64,000 nt of DNA from Bacteroidota bacterium (GTDB lineage Bacteria; Bacteroidota; Rhodothermia; Rhodothermales; UBA10348), in NCBI GenBank assembly GCA_022567305.1, contig JADFHF010000010.1, forward strand, positions 1-64,000, given 5' to 3'. The position numbers were made by a program, and so were the translations under genes. Under the pieces are notes generated by a model. It ran no database searches. It was not told the DNA's origin and saw only the letters and a program-made list of their open reading frames with translations. Positions 16,741-27,178 of the stretch are shown piece after piece; within the stretch, counting starts at the first letter, position 1, and each line of letters opens with the position of its first letter.

Positions 16741-17679
16741 TTAGGGCTTCGATTTAACAGAAGCGATGCAACGCACTCTATCTTCATTAAGTTGCTCCAC
16801 AAGCGCTTCAATTCCTTCGAATTTCTTTTCTGAACGAATTCTTGATACGAATTCAACACGGAGTCTGCTTCCATATAAGTCTTCGTCCAGACCCATAATG
16901 TGCACTTCCAGGTGGCGCCCGTCTTCTTCAAAGGTGGGCCTAACGCCAATATTCATCATCCCGGCGTACGACGTGTCGCGATCTTCCAAATAGACCGCCA
17001 CGGCGTAAACGCCGTTTTGGGGGATCACCTTATTCTGGTTTATCGTTCTGAGGTTTGCCGTGGGGAAACCAATTTCACGGCCTCGGCCAATCCCTTTTAT
17101 CACTTCGGCCGTTATTCCGAATCGGTAACCCAAGTAATCACGTGCAAGTGCCATATTTCCCTTCTCCTTTATCGTATGCCGAATGAGCGAAGAGGACACG
17201 ATATCATGATGAAATACTTTCGCAGGGATCACATCCACTGTGAACCGATGGTCTGATGCCATCTCGAGCAGAGTTTTCTCGCTTCCGGTCCGGTCCTGTC
17301 CAAAGTGATGATCGTCGCCAACGACCATCTCCTGCATACCGATACGCTTGATCAGCATATCTACCACAAAATCTTCAGCTCCGGTCTGAGAAAATTCTCG
17401 CGTAAACGGAATGACAACCATACGCTGAATCCCCAATTCTCCCAAGATTGTTGCACGCTCTTCGATGGTAGTGAGAAGCGAAACGGGATCTGGACCCACA
17501 ATTTCACGTGGATGTGGATCAAACGTGACCACCGTGCTGGTCCCCCCCCTTTCCGCACTTCTCTCGAGTAAATGGTCGAGAATCGCCCGGTGCCCCATGT
17601 GAACACCGTCAAATGTCCCTACCGTAACAACAGAAGAATCGTCACGAATCACATCCGCTATGTGCTCGAGAGGGTTCAC
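16741..17679 (-). CDS. ribF: bifunctional riboflavin kinase/FAD synthetase
   Basis: RibF turns riboflavin into FMN and then FAD. The 312-residue protein has the nucleotidyltransferase domain with VGTFDGVHMGHRAIL (21-35) and a C-terminal riboflavin kinase domain with GRGREIGFPTANL and the PQNGVYAV strand. The start is GTG at 17679, overlapping the truB stop as GTGA, so it is translationally coupled to truB. The truB-ribF order is common across bacteria. Confidence 0.95.
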   Translation of the reverse strand: MNPLEHIADVIRDDSSVVTVGTFDGVHMGHRAILDHLLERSAERGGTSTVVTFDPHPREIVGPDPVSLLTTIEERATILGELGIQRMVVIPFTREFSQTGAEDFVVDMLIKRIGMQEMVVGDDHHFGQDRTGSEKTLLEMASDHRFTVDVIPAKVFHHDIVSSSLIRHTIKEKGNMALARDYLGYRFGITAEVIKGIGRGREIGFPTANLRTINQNKVIPQNGVYAVAVYLEDRDTSYAGMMNIGVRPTFEEDGRHLEVHIMGLDEDLYGSRLRVEFVSRIRSEKKFEGIEALVEQLNEDRVRCIASVKSKP

Positions 17680-18404
17680 GACTTTGGAAGTGGCTGTTCC
17701 ATTCGAATGGGAACTCGAGTTTTAAGGTTCTCCAAGCTCCATGCACGATCCACTCCGATGTTGCCGATCCCCGTTCGTCGGAGAGCAATCAAATGCGCAC
17801 CGACTCCAAGCTCTTGCCCCAGTTCATGGGCGATGGATCGAACATAGGTACCCCTCGAGCACGTCATCCTAAAGGGTACGTCGGCACCCTCCAGATCGCC
17901 AAGATCCAACGAGTATACAGAGACATCCCTCGGCGGAGTCGTTACTTGTTCACCGCGTCGGGCCTTTTTGTATAGTCGTTCTCCGTGATGTCGGACCGCC
18001 GAGTAGATTGGGGTGGTTTGTCTTAACGACCCGACAAATTTGGTGGATGCAGCACGTATTTTTTCTGTCGTGAGTCCATCTATGTTTGTCGAAGAGTCGA
18101 CAGGCGTCTCTGCATCGTACGAGGCCGTCGTTTGGCCCATGCGAATGAGACCGTCGTATGACTTCTCCATTTCCATAAATTCCCTCATGCGTTTGGTAGA
18201 AGCTCCGAACAAACAAATGAGAAGACCTGTTGCCATTGGATCCAGGGTCCCCGCATGTCCAATTTTTCGTTGTCCGGTTATTTTCCTGAGCTCGCGTATA
18301 ACGTCGAAGGATGACAGTCCTTTTGTCTTGTCAACCGGTAGAACAACGGAATCCCAAGATGTTGGAAGTTCCGGATAGTAAAAGAGTTCACCACTTGATG
18401 ACAT
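17676..18404 (-). CDS. truB: tRNA pseudouridine-55 synthase
   Basis: TruB makes pseudouridine 55 in the T-loop of tRNAs. The 242-residue protein has VDKTKGLSSFDVIRELRK, KIGHAGTLDPMATGLL with the catalytic Asp, and CSRGTYVRSIAHELG. The C-terminal PUA-like extension is short. It lies 32 bases behind rbfA and overlaps ribF by 4 bases, in the conserved nusA-infB-rbfA-truB-ribF order. Confidence 0.95.
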   Translation of the reverse strand: MSSSGELFYYPELPTSWDSVVLPVDKTKGLSSFDVIRELRKITGQRKIGHAGTLDPMATGLLICLFGASTKRMREFMEMEKSYDGLIRMGQTTASYDAETPVDSSTNIDGLTTEKIRAASTKFVGSLRQTTPIYSAVRHHGERLYKKARRGEQVTTPPRDVSVYSLDLGDLEGADVPFRMTCSRGTYVRSIAHELGQELGVGAHLIALRRTGIGNIGVDRAWSLENLKTRVPIRMEQPLPKS

Positions 18405-18436: not shown

Positions 18437-18811
18437 TTAGGAAACGGCATCCGGGCCCTCCCGCTCTTCATTGATCTTACCGAACAGCTCCTCCAAGCGG
18501 GCAGCCTCGGTTAGGGATTCATCGAGAAAAAAGCGAAGGCTGGGGACAGATTTCAGTTGGTGCCGTATGCGAGCTGCCAAACTGAATCGGATCTGACTGG
18601 CTAAATCCTTCAGGTGCTCCAGAAGAGCTTTTCTTTGCTCATCGCCGTCACCTAAAATGCTTACATACACACTTGCGATAGAAAGGTCATTTGTCACTCG
18701 GACGCCCGTCACCGTAACGAGCGGCTTAAGCTGATCGGAGAAATCCTTGGACAAGATTTCAGCAATCTCTCGCTGAAGCATTCTGGAGACTCTCTCGGTG
18801 CGAATACTCAT
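18437..18811 (-). CDS. rbfA: 30S ribosome-binding factor A
   Basis: RbfA is a KH-like protein that helps mature the 16S rRNA 5' end and is important in cold adaptation. The 124-residue product has the usual size and features: RTERVSRMLQREIAEILSKD at the N-terminus, VTVTGVRVTNDLSIASVYVS, and RHQLKSVPSLRFFLDES. It is 45 bases behind infB. Confidence 0.94.
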   Translation of the reverse strand: MSIRTERVSRMLQREIAEILSKDFSDQLKPLVTVTGVRVTNDLSIASVYVSILGDGDEQRKALLEHLKDLASQIRFSLAARIRHQLKSVPSLRFFLDESLTEAARLEELFGKINEEREGPDAVS

Positions 18812-18856: not shown

Positions 18857-21667
18857 CTATACTTCGAGCGTGCGCTTGGTCTCTACGATTTCGTATGCTT
18901 CAATCTGATCACCCACCTTGATGTCATTAAAGTTCTCGATTCCGATTCCACACTCGTACCCATTCTGAACTTCTCTGACGTCGTCTTTGAATCGTCTGAG
19001 CGATGCAAGAGTCCCATCATAAATGACGACATCATCGCGGATCAGGCGAACATTATCAGATCGCTTAATTCGACCGTCCACCACAAAACAGCCAGCAACC
19101 ATTCCGATTTTCGGAACCTTAAACGTCTCACGCACATCCATCACACCGACAATGTTTTCGTGTTTCTCAGGCGTAAGCAGTCCCTCGAGTGCGTCGCGTA
19201 CCTCAGCAATTGCGTGATAAATTACGGAGTAGAGTCGAATATCGATCTCTTCCTTTTCGGCGAGACGGCGGGCACCCAATACGGGTCGGACCTGGAAACC
19301 GATAATAATGGCATTAGACGCAGTCGCAAGCATCACGTCGCTCTCATTGATGGCTCCGACACCTTTATGAATAATATTTACAACCACTTCTTCAGTGGAA
19401 AGCTTCAGTAGAGAATCTGAGAGCGCCTCCACAGACCCCCCTACATCTCCCTTAACAACCAGGTGAAGTTCGCGGAAATCGCCAAGGGCAAGACGTCGAC
19501 CAATTTCGTCGAGAGTGATGTGCTTCCTCTGACGGTGAGCTTGTTCTCTAGATATTTGTTGACGCTTTTGGGCAATAGCTTTCGCTTCTTTCTCATCATC
19601 CATAACAATGAAGGAATCTCCCACGTCTGGCGAACCATCGAGGCCTATAACCTGCGCCGGCATCGCCGGGCCAGCTTCATAAATACGATTATCCCGCTCA
19701 TCAAACATTGCACGGACTCGCCCGAAATAGATGCCGGCGATGAACGCATCTCCCAGCCTTAGGGTACCATTTTGTACGAGGACTGAGGCGACAACACCAC
19801 GTCCTTTCTCGAGCTTGCTTTCGATGACTGTTCCAACGGTGTTTCTGTTAGGATTCGCTTTCAAATCCAGTAACTCAGATTCCAACAAAACCCTGTCCAA
19901 GAGTTCATCAACACCCTTTCCAGTTTTGGCCGAAACCAACTCACACTGCACTTTTCCACCGAACTGCTCTACGAGAACATTTTCATCGGCAAGTTGCTGC
20001 ATGACCCGTTGTTCATTGGCGTCGGACTTATCGATTTTGTTGATGGCGACGACAATGGGTACGTTAGCTGCTCTAGCATGATTAATCGCCTCGACGGTCT
20101 GAGGCATAACCGCATCGTCTGCCGCAACCACTAGAATTACAAGGTCAGTAACCTGAGCCCCTCGCGCACGCATGGCCGTGAAAGCTTCGTGTCCAGGCGT
20201 GTCCAGGAACGTCAGCTCCCTATCGTTTTTGAGCTTTACGTGATAGGCTCCAATATGCTGAGTGATCCCTCCAGCTTCGCCGGCCACCACATTTTCGTTC
20301 CGGATATGATCCAACAGCGAGGTTTTCCCGTGGTCTACGTGACCCATCACGGTGACCACGGCAGATCTTGGTAGAAGGTCTTCGGGTGCATCTTCCTCGA
20401 CGATAATGTCCGAGACGGTGAACTCGCTGATAAATTCAACTTCGTACCCATACTCGTCAGCGACAAAGGTGATTGTGTCAGCATCGAGTCGTTGATTGAT
20501 GGATACGATCATTCCGGCCTCGAAGAGTACACTGATGACTTCCGTAACCGGAACATCCATCAAGTTTGCAAGCTCACCTGTGGAGAGATATTCGGTAAGT
20601 TCGAGGAGCGTTTCGCCTTCTTCCTTCTCGTCCATTTCCCGCTGACGCTCAGCTGCATGATCCTCTCGCTTCTGGCGTCTCCGGCGTTGACGGACACGGC
20701 TCGCGCCCATTTCCAATTCACGAAGGGTTTCCTGAAGCGTTTGTTCGACATCAGCCTCGTCAACCTTCGGTCCCTTCTTTTTCTTGGATTTCTTTTTTGA
20801 GACTTGGCCGTCCGGCTGATCGACCACACCTTTCTGAGGCTTACCTCCTCCACCGATTCTCTTTCTCTTTCGCTTTTTACCTCTCTTTCCAGCCGGGGGT
20901 CGGTCTTCCTCCTTTACCTTCTCAAGGTTAATCGTCCCTAGAATTTTAGTCCCAGCTAGTTTGTAGCGATCGGCAGCCAACAAACCTTCCTGCTCAACTT
21001 GTTCTTCAAGATCCTCGGCAGCTTCTATTGCCCCGTCTGAAGAATCCGGGGCTATGTCCGGTATTGCCTCGTCCGGTTTTGGTACGGCTTCCTCCGCTAG
21101 CATTTCTGTCGACTCTGCTACAATCTCGGCTTGGTCGACTAAAGGTTCGGGCTGTTTGTCGGGCTTTTCTGTCGGTTCAGAGATTACCGGTTCGACCTCG
21201 ACTGGAGCCTCGCCGATCACCTCGGCGACAGTCTCGGAGACCTCGTCAACTTTCGATTCTTCAGAAACTGCTTCCTCAGTATCCTCCTGAACATCTTCCG
21301 GAACGACTTCCGCCTTCAGAGTCTCAACGTATTCGTCTTCAAAGGATGTCGCTTCTTCAGATTCCGCTTCCTCGACGACCGCCTCTTCCTCAGGAATTTC
21401 TTTTTCTACGATTTCGCCCGTTTCCGAGACGACACGCGCAGCACGCTTCTTATCAATTCGGGCTGCCACTACCTTGTCTTCAGCGAATTCCTCGAGAAGA
21501 GCCAGATACGCGTCTTCATTTGTAATAGACGCATTGATTCCCTTGCCAGAAAGGGCATCAGCGAAACCGGCATCTGAAAGGTGCTCAACCAGAGAATCAA
21601 CGGCGATGTTTAACTCGCGCGAAACCCTAAATAAGCGAACTTTCTTAAAATTATCCGTCGTGGACAT
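18857..21667 (-). CDS. infB: translation initiation factor IF-2
   Basis: IF-2 is the GTPase that brings initiator tRNA to the 30S subunit. The 936-residue protein has an IF2_N-like start (VRLFRVSRELNIAVDSLVEH), a long Glu/Val/Pro-rich linker (about 85-240), a basic stretch (GKRGKKRKRKRIGGGGKPQ near 265), and the G domain with VMGHVDHGKTSLLDH (about 437), DTPGHEAF and NKID, followed by domains II-IV. The acidic linker is longer than in many species and resembles those of halophilic Rhodothermota. Operon position between nusA and rbfA is the standard one. Confidence 0.96.
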   Translation of the reverse strand: MSTTDNFKKVRLFRVSRELNIAVDSLVEHLSDAGFADALSGKGINASITNEDAYLALLEEFAEDKVVAARIDKKRAARVVSETGEIVEKEIPEEEAVVEEAESEEATSFEDEYVETLKAEVVPEDVQEDTEEAVSEESKVDEVSETVAEVIGEAPVEVEPVISEPTEKPDKQPEPLVDQAEIVAESTEMLAEEAVPKPDEAIPDIAPDSSDGAIEAAEDLEEQVEQEGLLAADRYKLAGTKILGTINLEKVKEEDRPPAGKRGKKRKRKRIGGGGKPQKGVVDQPDGQVSKKKSKKKKGPKVDEADVEQTLQETLRELEMGASRVRQRRRRQKREDHAAERQREMDEKEEGETLLELTEYLSTGELANLMDVPVTEVISVLFEAGMIVSINQRLDADTITFVADEYGYEVEFISEFTVSDIIVEEDAPEDLLPRSAVVTVMGHVDHGKTSLLDHIRNENVVAGEAGGITQHIGAYHVKLKNDRELTFLDTPGHEAFTAMRARGAQVTDLVILVVAADDAVMPQTVEAINHARAANVPIVVAINKIDKSDANEQRVMQQLADENVLVEQFGGKVQCELVSAKTGKGVDELLDRVLLESELLDLKANPNRNTVGTVIESKLEKGRGVVASVLVQNGTLRLGDAFIAGIYFGRVRAMFDERDNRIYEAGPAMPAQVIGLDGSPDVGDSFIVMDDEKEAKAIAQKRQQISREQAHRQRKHITLDEIGRRLALGDFRELHLVVKGDVGGSVEALSDSLLKLSTEEVVVNIIHKGVGAINESDVMLATASNAIIIGFQVRPVLGARRLAEKEEIDIRLYSVIYHAIAEVRDALEGLLTPEKHENIVGVMDVRETFKVPKIGMVAGCFVVDGRIKRSDNVRLIRDDVVIYDGTLASLRRFKDDVREVQNGYECGIGIENFNDIKVGDQIEAYEIVETKRTLEV

Positions 21668-21710: not shown

Positions 21711-23714
21711 CTAAGCCTCTATTTTCTCTTCTCCTTCTTCCTCGGTATTCTCTGTAGAGCTTGATTCCTCGTCTACATTCTCGGTGCCTTCCGTGTCGTC
21801 GGCCGTAGTCTCGTCACTGTTCTCGGCTTTGGCCTCTTCGCTGTCGTCGGCTTTGACCGCGTCGCCGCTGTCGGCCTTGGCCTCTTCGCTGTCGTCGGCT
21901 TTGACCGCGTCGCCGCTGTCGGCCTTGGCCTCTTCGCTGTCGTCGGCTTTGGCCGCGTCGCCGCTGTCGGCCGTAGTCTCGTCGCTGTTCTCGGCTTTGG
22001 CCTCTTCGCTGTCCTCGTCTTTGACCGCGTCGCCGCTGTCAGCCTTGACCTCTTCGCTGTCGTCGGCCTTGGCCTCTTCGCTATCGTCGGCTTTGGCCGC
22101 GTCGCCGCTGTCGGCCTTGGCCTCTTCGCTGTCGTCGGTCTTGGCCGCGTCGCCGGCGTCGGCTTTGGCCTCTTCGCTGTCGTCGGAGTCAGGGCTTTCC
22201 GGGTCTGATTCTGCAGAAGCTTTGTCCGCAGTTTCAGTCTCCGGGGATTCATCTGCGCCTTCTTCGGATGCACTTTCGCTCGTTTCCTCCTCGGCTGAAG
22301 CGTCATCCTCTTCCGAATCGAGTTTCACATCGGAGTCCGTATCGGAGTCCGCAGCAGAATCCTCCTTGGATTCTGCTTTCTCGTCAATTAATTCTGCGTC
22401 TTCTTTAGGAACCGTCGCTTCGGCACCCTCCACTGGCGGAGTTGCCAATTCTATCTTGTTGCCGTCATCCTCTTCCTCAAACTCGGATCGAATGACATCA
22501 ATCACTGCTGCAGCGATCTCGACGTCAAGCCCCGTCCTGCGGACCAATTCTTCCTTAGAGAGCTCTAGAACCGCACGCGCCGTGTCACACCCGATATCTC
22601 GCAATAGCTGAAGCGTATCGGCATCTATTTCGTCGGCAAACTCCCCAATCTCAACGTCCTCTTCTTTGTCCGAAATCTCTCGATAGACATCGATCTCGTA
22701 TCCTGTAAGCATGGACGCGAGTCGGATATTAATACCGCCCCGGCCAATTGCCTGGCTGACTTCATCCGCTCTTACAACGACCTTTGCTCTTGGAGGATCG
22801 AGGTCATCGTTGATCTGAATCGAGAAGGGATTTGATGGAGACAGCGCGCGTTTGATCAGCTCTTCCTTGCTGTCGGACCACTGAACCACATCAATATTTT
22901 CATTTCCCAATTCTCGTACGACAGCATGAATACGTGAGCCCTTCATTCCGACACACGCCCCTACCGGGTCGATTCGTTCGTCATAACTGATAACAGCCAC
23001 TTTGGCTCGTTCTCCAGGTTCTCTGACGATTTGTTTGATCTCAACAATCCCTTCGTCGATTTCCGGTACTTCGAGCTCAAATAGTCTCTCCATGAACAGC
23101 GGATCTGCGCGACTCACAATAATCTGTGGATTTCCGGCGCTGTCTCGACTGACCTCCTTGATGACCGCGCGGATCATGTCCCCTTTCCTATAGCGGTCAC
23201 GATAGATTTGCTCGCTTCTGGGAAGAATCAATTCCACTTTGTTGTGGATGACGAGAATCTCCCGGCGCCTGATCTGATAGATTTCACCTACGACGACTTC
23301 GCCGACCAGTTCTTGATACCACTCGAAGACATTCTCCTTTTCTATGTCCCGAATACGCTGACTAAACGTCTGGCGCGCCGTCATTACAGCCCGGCGCCCA
23401 AAATCTTTGAAGTCAATCTCTTCGGCCACTTCATCGCCTACCACGAATTCCGGGTCGGTGCGAATTGCGTCGGAATATTCAATTTGTGTAACCGGATCGT
23501 GCAAATCCCAATCCTTTACCACTTCCCTGATATGCAAAATCTGCATATCGCCATGATCTGGATTCAGGATGATCTCGAATGAATCGTCTGATCCATACCT
23601 CTTTTTGATCATTGCCCGAAACACATCCTCAACGATTAATTGAAGGGTATCTCTATCAATTCCCTTTTCATGCGCAATCTCTGCGAATGAAGAAACAAGG
23701 ACTGAACTCTGCAT
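21711..23714 (-). CDS. nusA: transcription factor NusA with a long acidic repeat tail
   Basis: NusA binds RNA polymerase and controls pausing, termination and antitermination. Residues 1-410 contain the N-terminal polymerase-binding domain, the S1 domain, two KH domains (GMKGSRIHAVVRELGNENID and IGRGGINIRLASMLTGYEID) and a helix-hairpin-helix region. The protein continues to 667 residues with about 250 residues of almost only Asp, Glu, Ala, Ser and Lys, including imperfect copies of DDSEEAKADSGDAAKA. Typical NusA proteins of this group end near 410-500. Whether the tail mimics the acidic repeats that contact polymerase in other NusA proteins, or reflects salt adaptation, is unknown. Confidence 0.95.
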   Translation of the reverse strand: MQSSVLVSSFAEIAHEKGIDRDTLQLIVEDVFRAMIKKRYGSDDSFEIILNPDHGDMQILHIREVVKDWDLHDPVTQIEYSDAIRTDPEFVVGDEVAEEIDFKDFGRRAVMTARQTFSQRIRDIEKENVFEWYQELVGEVVVGEIYQIRRREILVIHNKVELILPRSEQIYRDRYRKGDMIRAVIKEVSRDSAGNPQIIVSRADPLFMERLFELEVPEIDEGIVEIKQIVREPGERAKVAVISYDERIDPVGACVGMKGSRIHAVVRELGNENIDVVQWSDSKEELIKRALSPSNPFSIQINDDLDPPRAKVVVRADEVSQAIGRGGINIRLASMLTGYEIDVYREISDKEEDVEIGEFADEIDADTLQLLRDIGCDTARAVLELSKEELVRRTGLDVEIAAAVIDVIRSEFEEEDDGNKIELATPPVEGAEATVPKEDAELIDEKAESKEDSAADSDTDSDVKLDSEEDDASAEEETSESASEEGADESPETETADKASAESDPESPDSDDSEEAKADAGDAAKTDDSEEAKADSGDAAKADDSEEAKADDSEEVKADSGDAVKDEDSEEAKAENSDETTADSGDAAKADDSEEAKADSGDAVKADDSEEAKADSGDAVKADDSEEAKAENSDETTADDTEGTENVDEESSSTENTEEEGEEKIEA
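21796..22186 (-). repeat. 48-base tandem repeat inside nusA
   Basis: The DNA for the NusA tail is a degenerate tandem array of about eight units, period 48 bases with some 24- to 30-base partial units, encoding variants of DDSEEAKADSGDAAKA. Units differ by in-frame swaps (AVK/AAK, ENSDETT). The array is likely to vary in length between strains through slippage or recombination. It also creates long open shadow frames in the other five frames. Confidence 0.85.
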
Positions 23715-23796: not shown

Positions 23797-24282
23797 TTAC
23801 CAGGGCATGACAATTCGAGCCTCATCAATTTCTTCGAACGTAATCGTCATTATTTCGCCGGAGTCTAACTCCAGAACAACATCCTGGTCAGACGAAGAAA
23901 CGAGTTGTCCCCTCTCCTTGACTGAGTGAGCACCAGACGACGTCGGCCGAATCTGAACCTCAATCGTTTTCCCCGTATGCTGATGATATTGTCGTGGATT
24001 CATTAGCGCTTTTTGCTCACCGGGAGAAGACACGTTTAGGTGATATTTCCCTCGAATAAAATCTTCCGACTCCAATAAAAAGAAAAGTTGTTTGCTGATC
24101 AATGCGAGAACATCCACATTTACGCCCTGGTCGCCGTCTACGAAGACTTCGACGACACGGGAGCCCTGGCGACCTCGTACAACGACATCAACCAGGAATA
24201 CATCTAGTCCCTGCATCGCCTCAAGTGCGAGACGCTGAATCTTGGATTCGATATTTATCTCTGCCTTTATTCCCGTCACCAT
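23797..24282 (-). CDS. rimP: ribosome maturation factor RimP
   Basis: RimP is needed for 30S maturation. The 161-residue protein has the two-domain layout with VFLVDVVVRGRQGSRVVEVFVDGDQGVNVD, LNVSSPG and a C-terminal SH3-like domain (VVLELDSGEIMTITFEEIDEARIV). I chose the ATG at 24282; the frame begins at a TTG at 24294 that falls inside the T-run of a terminator. It is the first gene of the nusA-infB operon, preceded by two tandem terminators. Confidence 0.92.
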   Translation of the reverse strand: MVTGIKAEINIESKIQRLALEAMQGLDVFLVDVVVRGRQGSRVVEVFVDGDQGVNVDVLALISKQLFFLLESEDFIRGKYHLNVSSPGEQKALMNPRQYHQHTGKTIEVQIRPTSSGAHSVKERGQLVSSSDQDVVLELDSGEIMTITFEEIDEARIVMPW

Positions 24283-24292
24283 GCTATTCTGC

Positions 24293-24328
24293 AAAAAACG
24301 CCCGTTCCGGTTTTTACTCGGACGGGCG
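24293..24328 (-). terminator. strong intrinsic terminator directly before rimP
   Basis: On the minus strand, CGCCCGT plus CCG pair with CGG plus ACGGGCG (arms 24319-24328 and 24299-24309, one bulged base) around an A-rich loop, followed by TTTTTT at 24298-24293. Only 10 bases separate the T-run from the rimP ATG. Because a promoter lies upstream, it would have to be read through for rimP-nusA-infB to be expressed, which points to attenuation or antitermination. Confidence 0.75.
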
Positions 24329-24350
24329 CCACCTACTTCCTTTCAGCAAC

Positions 24351-24378
24351 AAAAAAGGGCGGCATCGTGCCCCCCTTT
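24351..24378 (-). terminator. first of two tandem terminators ahead of rimP
   Basis: On the minus strand AAAGGGGGGC pairs with GCCGCCCTTT (10-bp stem with one mismatch, loop ACGAT), followed by a run of six T's, TTTTTTGTT. It lies 91 bases after the nadB stop and just after the putative rimP promoter. It could simply end nadB transcription, or form part of a two-step attenuator. Confidence 0.7.
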
Positions 24379-24391
24379 CACCGTAGCCAAC

Positions 24392-24421
24392 AATATACAC
24401 CGAATTCAGCTCGTTGTCCAA
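24392..24421 (-). promoter_or_regulatory. putative sigma-70 promoter for rimP-nusA-infB
   Basis: On the minus strand a TTGGAC -35 (24421-24416) and a TATATT -10 (24397-24392) are separated by 18 bases. Start of transcription would be near 24385, placing both terminators in the leader. This is the best-matching promoter in the nadB-rimP gap. It has not been tested against alternatives by computation. Confidence 0.5.
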
Positions 24422-24468: not shown

Positions 24469-26058
24469 TCAGAGTAGCGTAGGAGTCGTTTCTTCCTGTC
24501 TGAGTTCAGGGTAATCACTCATGTAGTGCAACCCTCGACTCTCTTTTCTGGACTGGGAACTGCGGATAATGAGATAAGCCACCGCAATCATATTTCGAAG
24601 CTCACATAAAGGAGCAGAAACACGCGATTTCTTAAAAAAATCCTCTGTCTCCTCGTAGAGAAGTCTCGTTCGTCTAAAAGCCCTGTCCAATCGTAATTCT
24701 GATCTCACGATGCCGACATAGTCCCACATCACACGCCTCAGTTCTTCCCTGTTGTGAGAAACAAGCACCCACTCCTGAGGATTCTCCGTGCCGCTTTCAT
24801 CCCAGTCCGGAATGTCTTCTCTCCAATTCGAATTTCTACGGATCTCGAGAGCATGTTGGACCGCGCGATGGCCAACGACAAGGGCTTCGAGTAGAGAGTT
24901 GCTAGCGAGGCGGTTTGCTCCATGCAGACCCGTACAGGCTACTTCACCGCAAGCAAGCAGGCGCTCGATGGACGACTGACCGTTCAAATCCGTTTTGACA
25001 CCTCCACACATATAGTGCGCCGCCGGTACGACCGGTATAGGATCTTTAGAGATGTCAATACCCACCGACAGGCAGGTAGAAAAAATCGTAGGGAAACGGG
25101 TTTGGAGAAAATCTTTGTTATGGTGGCTAACGTCCAGAAGGGCGTGGGTGTTGCCACTTATCTTTAGTTGTTCATCAATGGCCCGCGCTACAATGTCCCG
25201 CGATGCCATCTCACCTCGCTCGTCGTAGTCGTCCATGAAGCGCCGACCGTCGAGGTCAGTAAGAATGGCTCCTTCGCCCCGTACTGCCTCTGAGATCAGA
25301 AAGGCACTGGAATCTTCGTGGTAGAGTGTGGTCGGATGGAACTGTACGAACTCCAGATTTTCGAGGCGGGCTTTCGCCCGGTAAGCCATCGCGATCCCGT
25401 CTCCTGTTGCAACTACGGGATTCGTTGTGTGCTGATAAACCTGGCCGGCTCCGCCAGCCGCGAGCAGTGTCACTTTGGCGAGGATCTTTTTAACTCGAGC
25501 AGCATGGTCATCCAAAACGTATGCCCCAAAACAGTGCGTGGTTCTCCCGGCTCGGGTCTGCTGTTCTACAAGATGGTGTTCTGTGATCAGCTCCAGAGCA
25601 AAATGGTGTTCCAGAATCAGGATATTCTTGTGGGTCCTTACCCGTTCAAGAAGAGACCGCTCCACCTCCTTGCCGGTCGCGTCGGCGGCGTAAACAATTC
25701 GATTCTCCTGATGGCCTCCCTCACGACCGAGCAGAAACGTGTTTTCATCCGATTTCGAAAATTTGGCCCCAAGCCTTTCCAGGGCTTCGATGCGTGCCGG
25801 GCCATCTTGAATAATAACCCGGACCACGTTAGGGTCGCATAGTCCGGCTCCGGCGTGAATGGTATCCTCAATATGCTTCTCAAAAGAATCGGTATCACCT
25901 AGCACGACCGCGATCCCACCCTGCGCATAATTCGTATTGGATTCGACCGGCTCTTTCTTCGTTACGATGACCACGGTGCCAAACGAAGCCGCTTTGAGCG
26001 CGAACGTCAGCCCTGCGGCGCCGCTACCAATTACCAGAAAATCGAATCGATCGTCCAT
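24469..26058 (-). CDS. nadB: L-aspartate oxidase
   Basis: NadB oxidises L-aspartate to iminoaspartate, the first step of de novo NAD synthesis. The 529-residue flavoprotein has the FAD loop GSGAAGLTFAL (11-21), NTNYAQGGIAVVL, the substrate region EFVQFHPTTLY, and AAHYMCGGVKTDLNGQSS. The C-terminal helical domain of the succinate dehydrogenase/NadB family is complete. nadA and nadC are not in the window. It is 12 bases behind prfB. Confidence 0.93.
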   Translation of the reverse strand: MDDRFDFLVIGSGAAGLTFALKAASFGTVVIVTKKEPVESNTNYAQGGIAVVLGDTDSFEKHIEDTIHAGAGLCDPNVVRVIIQDGPARIEALERLGAKFSKSDENTFLLGREGGHQENRIVYAADATGKEVERSLLERVRTHKNILILEHHFALELITEHHLVEQQTRAGRTTHCFGAYVLDDHAARVKKILAKVTLLAAGGAGQVYQHTTNPVVATGDGIAMAYRAKARLENLEFVQFHPTTLYHEDSSAFLISEAVRGEGAILTDLDGRRFMDDYDERGEMASRDIVARAIDEQLKISGNTHALLDVSHHNKDFLQTRFPTIFSTCLSVGIDISKDPIPVVPAAHYMCGGVKTDLNGQSSIERLLACGEVACTGLHGANRLASNSLLEALVVGHRAVQHALEIRRNSNWREDIPDWDESGTENPQEWVLVSHNREELRRVMWDYVGIVRSELRLDRAFRRTRLLYEETEDFFKKSRVSAPLCELRNMIAVAYLIIRSSQSRKESRGLHYMSDYPELRQEETTPTLL

Positions 26059-26070
26059 GAGAGCGCCGGG

Positions 26071-27178
26071 TTACTTGCTTTCCCGGACTAGGAAAGCGCT
26101 GATAAAAGAATCCAGTTCGCCGTCCATCACCGCGTGAACATCCGTGATTTTTGTCTCCGTCCGATGATCGTTCACCATCGTGTATGGCTGGAATACGTAA
26201 GAACGGATCTGAGAACCCCATTCAATTTTTTTCTTGCTTCCTTCAATCTCAGTCTTAGCGGCTTCTTGAATTTCCTGCTCAAGCTGATAGACGCGGCTTT
26301 TCAGCATCGTCATTGCACGATCCTTGTTTTGAAACTGGCTCCGTTCCTCCGTGCACTCTGCTACCACGCGTGCGTCTTCTCCGTTGGATAACGCTCCCGT
26401 CCAGATGAGTCGGACACCGGTCTCGACTTTGTTTACATTCTGACCACCTGCACCCCCAGAACGAAACGTCTGTAATTCAATCTGATCGCTTCTCAGTTCG
26501 ATTTCTATTGTGTCATCTATTTCCGGATAAACAAAAACGCTTGCGAATGACGTATGCCGTCTACCGCTCGAATCAAATGGTGAAATTCGCACGAGTCGGT
26601 GCACGCCCGTCTCCGATTGCAGATACCCAAAAGCGTGACGTCCCGAAATGTGCAGCGTCGCAGACTTAATACCGGCGACGTCGCCTTCCTGGTATTCAAG
26701 CATCCGAACGTCGAACCCATTTCTTTCGCCATATCGGGTATACATTCTGAGCAGCATCTCGGCCCAGTCTTGACTCTCTGTACCCCCTGCGCCCGGGTGT
26801 ATGGTTAGAATGGCATCGCGATGATCATCCGGACCCGAAAGCATGCTCTTCAGCTCGAGCGCAGACAAAAGCTTTTCGAGGGGGTCGTACTCGGCGCTGA
26901 GTTCGGCGTCGAGATCTTCGCCTTCCTCGGTAGCGAGTTCAATGAGGGTCTCCACATCATCCGCGCGATTGCGAATAGCGCTCCATTCGTTTAGCCACAA
27001 TTTGAGGCCAGATATTTCCTTTTCGACCAATTGAGCCTGGGATGGATCAGACCAGAACTCTGGATCCAGGCGCTTCGCCTCGAGTTTTTCGACCTCCCTC
27101 TGCTTCGTATCTACGTCAAAGATACCTCCCGAGCGTGTCAACACGCTCTAAGAGGTTACGTATCTGATCCTTCTCCAT
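26071..27178 (-). CDS. prfB: peptide chain release factor 2 with programmed +1 frameshift
   Basis: RF2 reads UGA and UAA stops. The gene starts with ATG at 27178; twenty codons (MEKDQIRNLLERVDTLGRYL) lead to an in-frame TGA at 27118-27116. A +1 shift at CTT TGA C continues into the main frame at GAC (27117), giving a 368-residue protein, close to the E. coli length of 365. The main frame contains the specificity motif SPF (ISPFDSSGRRHTS) and the catalytic GGQ (GGAGGQNVNKVETG). A gene finder that ignores the shift will call a truncated protein from a GTG at 27144. Confidence 0.96.
27115..27130 (-). promoter_or_regulatory. prfB +1 frameshift signal
   Basis: The messenger reads GGG AGG TAT CTT TGA C. 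The purine-rich Shine-Dalgarno-like GGGAGG, 3 bases before CTT, the slippery CTT codon, and the TGA C context match the known RF2 autoregulatory site, in which low RF2 makes the ribosome stall at UGA and slip forward. Spacing is identical to that in E. coli. Confidence 0.95.

Follow-up and report, generated by a model that had tools for sequence, protein, structure and literature searches.

The interval between nadB and rimP in a Rhodothermales MAG (Bacteroidota) is best explained as an attenuator of the rimP-leader type that is set by transcription factors, most plausibly NusA, and we assign this whole explanation a probability of about 0.6. The leader contains a promoter-like box followed by two tandem terminator hairpins, here called T1 and T2, and both hairpins are found upstream of rimP in most Rhodothermales loci.

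Layout of the rimP leader

The window, i.e., the whole stretch of 64,000 nucleotides that was analyzed, carries prfB, nadB, the leader, rimP, nusA, infB, rbfA and truB in this order on its minus strand. Read directly from the sequence, the nadB-rimP gap runs on this strand from TTGGAC-18-TATATT through T1 with T6 and T2 with T6 to a final 10 bases and the rimP ATG. The features are as follows:

24469..26058, minus strand: nadB, co-directional upstream neighbor, outside the leader (HMM)
24416..24421, minus strand: TTGGAC, putative -35 (or Bacteroidota -33 TTG) element (sequence; scan site 10 of 12; alone not above chance)
24391..24397 (TATATT 24397-24392), minus strand: TATATTG, putative -10 / Bacteroidota -7 box, TAnnTT[T/G] (sequence, scan, enrichment in relatives)
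24354..24378, minus strand: T1 hairpin, AAAGGG-G-GGCA(CGA)TGCC-G-CCCTTT (10 pairs, 1x1 G24372.G24360 mismatch)
24351..24356, minus strand: T1 U-tract, T6 then GTT (sequence)
24298..24329, minus strand: T2 hairpin, GCGCCCGUCCG...CGG.ACGGGCG(U), core CGCCCG...CGGGCG (sequence, fold, conservation)
24293..24298, minus strand: T2 U-tract, T6 (sequence)
23797..24282, minus strand: rimP, first gene of the putatively regulated operon (HMM)
21711..23714, minus strand: nusA, candidate feedback regulator (HMM)
18857..21667, minus strand: infB (IF-2) (HMM)
18437..18811, minus strand: rbfA (HMM)
17676..18404, minus strand: truB (HMM)

The promoter-like match given in the preliminary description was present (24421-24416, an 18-nt spacer, 24397-24392), and in a generic scan it was not above chance on its own (3 sites vs. 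4.7 expected). The first stem, described there as a 10-bp G/C stem, does have 10 pairs and a T6, but only six of these pairs are G-C, arranged around one G.G mismatch. The second stem with its T6 ends 10 bases before the rimP ATG (24282), as had been stated; the 24-base stretch that had also been placed after this second T-run is really these 10 bases. T1 ends about 68 nt from the same ATG. The leader folded at -44.8 kcal/mol, compared to -31.8 for shuffled sequences (z = -3.8), while a simple terminator scan missed both T1 and T2. Since the generic promoter and terminator scan gave no signal above chance, the case rests on conservation.

Conservation of the hairpins upstream of rimP

A NusA protein search yielded about 60 Rhodothermales loci, in which the region upstream of rimP was then scanned for hairpins followed by a T-run. 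Both T1 and T2 were found in most of them (e.g., AGGGGGGCTACCAGCCGCCCT-T6 and GCGCCCGTCCGAGCTTCGGACCGGGCGT-T6). The T1 pattern AGGG[AG]GGC..GCCGCCCTTTT occurred in 27 of 114 genomes of the order, the MAG under study included, at exactly one place per genome, and the reversed-pattern control gave zero matches (27 Rhodothermales genomes with the T1 pattern). A strict T2 pattern, CGCCCG..CGGGCGTTTT, matched one place in the MAG itself, and a looser version was found in 107 of the 114 genomes, but with other places there too.

At a wider scale, 118 genomes of the phylum set were examined, of which 117 yielded RimP, and leaders were taken for a subset. In 132 of 141 distinct leaders (60/61 in the order, 18/18 in the class and 54/62 in the phylum), rimP had a terminator-like hairpin with a T-run no more than 200 nt away. 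The stems are therefore conserved in relatives, whereas their absence there had been named earlier as a sign that they only end nadB transcription. Outside the order the hairpin is usually single, e.g., GTGAGCGTCGGAAGGCACTCGC-T8 in Balneolales-like families and GAGGGGAC..GTCCCCTC-T or AGTGGGG..CCCCACT-T in others, and in some families the 5' arm is C-rich (TCGCCC..GGGCGA). From this distribution, taken without a formal tree, T1 would appear to be the shared element, to which T2 was added in Rhodothermales. Three Rhodothermales leaders (L008, L011 and L014) carry T2 alone, with no T1 call upstream of rimP; together with the single T1-type hairpin outside the order, they show that neither T1 nor T2 is, judged by its presence, indispensable. 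At the T1 position, L008 holds a hairpin remnant without a U-tract.

Anatomy of T1 and T2

A 1x1 mismatch was present at one register of the best T1 hairpin in 65 of 79 leaders (47/61 in the order and 18/18 in the class). The non-pair itself took nine different forms among 54 distinct sequences (A.G 15, G.G 14, C.A 10, G.A 5, A.C 3, A.A 2, U.U 2, C.C 2 and C.U 1), and the pairs around it change together, inner pair 2, for instance, being GC in 36, CG in 15, TG in 11 and TA in 2. The covariation check proposed beforehand was positive for this first stem: T1 arms fitted their own partner better than the arms of other species, with 0 of 500 permutations as good, in a test where the hairpin finder conditions on pairing and related genomes are not independent. 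No such 1x1 mismatch was seen in the single hairpins called beside rimP outside the class. With regard to the mismatch as a generic terminator trait, nine of 18 control hairpins from the flanks were mismatched, four of these being the antisense strand of T1, and the set is too small to decide the matter. In relatives, the T1 U-tract is mostly T6-8 followed by GT. The built-in stem mismatch and the G-interrupted U-tract suggest that T1 may be a terminator needing help. In four leaders (L015, L021, L022 and L030), A- and T-tracts flank T1, which makes it terminator-like on both strands.

The CGCCCG/CGGGCG core of T2 is nearly fixed in sequence, and two pairs never vary, so that T2 is evidence for a constraint on sequence rather than mainly for covariation. 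Pairing overall reached 90.8%; column shuffles gave 85.9%, and sliding gave 46% at most. When the whole leader was aligned with MAFFT and folded with RNAalifold, the result was only five T2 pairs, without covariation, and recovered no T1, since T1 is variable in length; this approach was replaced by the register-based counts and the own-vs-swapped partner test.

Promoter box in relatives

A TAnnTT[TG] box preceded the first hairpin by no more than 70 nt in 21 of 54 order, 17 of 18 class and 39 of 52 phylum leaders, where shuffles predicted 8.2, 6.1 and 21.3, respectively. The strict form TAnnTTTG was present in 24 of the 52 phylum leaders vs. 3.4 in shuffles. In the order, 33 of the 54 leaders had no recognizable TAnnTT[TG] box within 70 nt. 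Four leaders of one family (f2; L133, L137, L138 and L143) have T1 and T2 intact and no such box visible within 70 nt of T1. The box typically ends 6-15 nt before the first hairpin, which in Balneolales-type relatives begins only about 6-7 nt after it. In published data from flavobacteria, the box occupies -12 to -5 (PMC9723704), so that T1 would lie within a few bases of the 5' end. In the window, we infer from the position of the -7 box a transcript start near 24385, ~7 nt 5' of T1.

Attenuation and the candidate role of NusA

In the proposed mechanism, the leader would be transcribed and would serve as the attenuator of the rimP-nusA-infB-rbfA-truB operon. RNA polymerase, starting upstream of T1 as above, would meet T1 and then T2, and operon mRNA would be made only by polymerases that read through both. 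Read-through would set expression, since the order of promoter, hairpins and ORF means that polymerases must pass T1 and T2. Attenuation of rimP-nusA-infB, as put forward in the preliminary description, agrees with the finding that both hairpins are conserved, lie between the promoter-like box and rimP, and are kept where the upstream gene is divergent. That the leader attenuates at all is, as judged from sequence, very probable.

Because T1 and T2 show no selected alternative pairing with each other, we argue for an attenuator set by a protein. The factor would most likely be NusA, probably with NusG: ample NusA would bring about more termination and turn its own operon down, while scarce NusA would permit read-through. 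NusA is the leading candidate on account of its leader termination in B. subtilis, the transcript rise in E. coli and the class to which interrupted U-tracts belong. The B. subtilis operon is controlled through termination within its own leader, which NusA stimulates (Mondal 2016, as cited in PMC12288461), and in E. coli a weakening of NusA-dependent termination leads to more operon transcript (PMC6511841). Moreover, terminators that depend on NusA and NusG in B. subtilis are marked by interruptions in the distal part of the U-tract, suboptimal terminators with interrupted U-tracts being the factor-dependent class (PMC8060035), and such an interruption (T6-8 then GT) is kept in T1. The sign of the effect proposed beforehand, NusA-dependent read-through, has to be reversed: NusA promotes termination and thereby feedback repression. 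By analogy with these species, control of the attenuation by NusA is slightly favored. In this scheme, it is we who infer where transcripts start and stop, that termination is partial, and which factor is at work.

A more elaborate version, which we consider quite unlikely, would be an attenuator with two stages, evolved in Rhodothermales: T1, held below its optimum by a selected internal mismatch, would sense NusA levels at the very 5' end of the transcript, and the fixed T2 would answer a second factor, so that two signals are integrated.

Alternative explanations

The attenuator might instead be set by another protein, either cold-shock RNA chaperones that melt the hairpins, or RimP or a ribosomal factor that binds them; this we regard as rather unlikely. 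Csp antitermination at the E. coli nusA-infB operon counts in favor of the chaperones. A protein site could also explain the near-fixed T2 sequence, although this may also reflect the needs of the transcription machinery. The same E. coli operon is cold-induced and has leader terminators (PMC6511841), whereas the direct evidence from B. subtilis, as relayed by the citing paper, is for NusA.

It is very unlikely that the hairpins only terminate nadB and that rimP has its own start without attenuation. nadB is indeed upstream and co-directional both here and in most Rhodothermales, and in this window the hairpins could also serve it. However, in 34 leaders (6 in the order, 11 in the class and 17 in the phylum) the closest long ORF upstream is divergent, and the hairpins are still beside rimP. 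Nine of ten such divergent ORFs tested had a Pfam family (Sortilin-Vps10, DUF192 (three), MreB, MS channel, Usp, DUF3109 and DUF5694); at the MreB locus (L082) the automatic hairpin call is not the real one, and GAGGGGAC..GTCCCCTC is visible by eye. In another leader (L052), nadB is 1.28 kb away and the hairpins are kept by rimP. Further, no promoter fits into the 10 bases between T2 and the ATG, and a -7 box precedes the first hairpin more often than in shuffles.

An RNA switch, mentioned as a possibility in the preliminary description, would require that the T1 and T2 arms swap partners or that a ligand aptamer controls T1, and we consider it highly improbable. The G-rich 5' arm of T1 can pair with the C-rich 5' arm of T2 (-11.9 kcal/mol in the window), and an antiterminator has been proposed for gammaproteobacterial rimP leaders (PMC2965389). 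Nevertheless, own T1-5'/T2-5' pairs were no better than swapped ones, with 304 of 500 permutations as good, and this antiterminator was rejected as a pairing that is not selected; in addition, T1 is stronger than this pairing and forms first. Signals for linker/T2-5' (6/500) and linker/T1-5' (5/500) were weak and inflated by species relatedness. The short distance between the -7 box and the hairpin in Balneolales-type relatives leaves no room for an aptamer, and an Rfam covariance-model search of the leader gave no match at gathering or lax thresholds.

In leader-peptide attenuation, T2 would be opened by translation of a short ORF. A candidate ORF in the window has its GTG at about 24333, overlaps T2 and stops across the rimP ATG, with AAAGGA a few bases before the GTG and a TGA that overlaps the start of rimP. 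This explanation was rejected as hardly credible, because the GTG is missing in most relatives (GGG, GAA, AAA or GCT at the site) and single-base indels in the T2 loops break the frame.

Neighboring genes

NusA is 667 residues long here, compared to 419-545 in relatives when counted from the same start. Its C-terminal tail (window 21711-22680, minus strand) is unusually long and acidic, extending about 323 residues past the conserved part, with 125 D/E and EEAKADSGDA-type repeats. Upstream, prfB (window 27178-27115, minus strand) probably starts at ATG 27178 and has a classic RF2 programmed +1 frameshift site, GGGAGGTATCTTTGAC, with the TGA at 27118-27116; the listed prfB ORF with a GTG start at 27144 is the downstream frame only.

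Comparison with known rimP and nusA leaders

By position and gene, the predicted attenuator is of the known rimP-leader kind, the most ubiquitous predicted attenuator in the survey of Naville and Gautheret (2010), with a GGGc..gCCC stem and, in gammaproteobacteria, an extra CCCg..cGGG hairpin upstream (PMC2965389). The leader shares with this family a terminator hairpin directly before rimP-nusA-infB, a G-rich 5' arm with a C-rich 3' arm (in T1), and the tandem form with a CCCg..cGGG hairpin (T2-like here). A predicted intrinsic terminator lies in the 5' UTR of rimP-nusA-infB, as in rimP-leader attenuators, and the family's distance of 4-130 nt to the gene start includes those of both T2 and T1. 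T1 (GGG-G-GGC..GCC-G-CCC) shows the GGG..gCCC pattern, with a mismatched base at the place where the family stem has c after GGG. The order, in contrast, is reversed, GGG..CCC coming first and CGCCCG..GGGCG nearest rimP, whereas in gammaproteobacteria CCCg..cGGG is upstream. The conserved 1x1 mismatch, the lack of support for an antiterminator and the lack of an Rfam match likewise set this leader apart.

The nusA (ylxS-nusA) leader of B. subtilis belongs to the same operon and likewise has an intrinsic terminator ahead of rimP/ylxS; as far as the cited account goes, NusA dependence is reported there, in a leader of about 180 nt, while here it is our proposal. Two terminators (t1 and t2) upstream of rimP are also found in the E. 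coli metY-nusA-infB leader, together with NusA feedback on the operon, as may be the case here; that leader contains metY and RNase III sites (PMC6511841), whereas no tRNA gene or such sites were seen in ours. Closer in phylogeny, Flavobacterium psychrophilum has a structured 5' element at rimP without an Rfam match, which the main text of the study names only in a list (PMC9723704). Phylum, gene, a structured 5' element (transcribed there) and the missing Rfam match are common to both, while outside Rhodothermales most of the sampled leaders have just one hairpin.

The novelty seems to lie in the form seen in Rhodothermales, with tandem terminators in the order opposite to that of gammaproteobacteria and a mismatched T1 stem, which bears on whether imperfection in regulatory terminators is itself maintained by selection. 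The fact that Firmicutes, Gammaproteobacteria and almost all of the Bacteroidota sampled have a terminator in this position suggests that feedback control is an ancient solution of general use.
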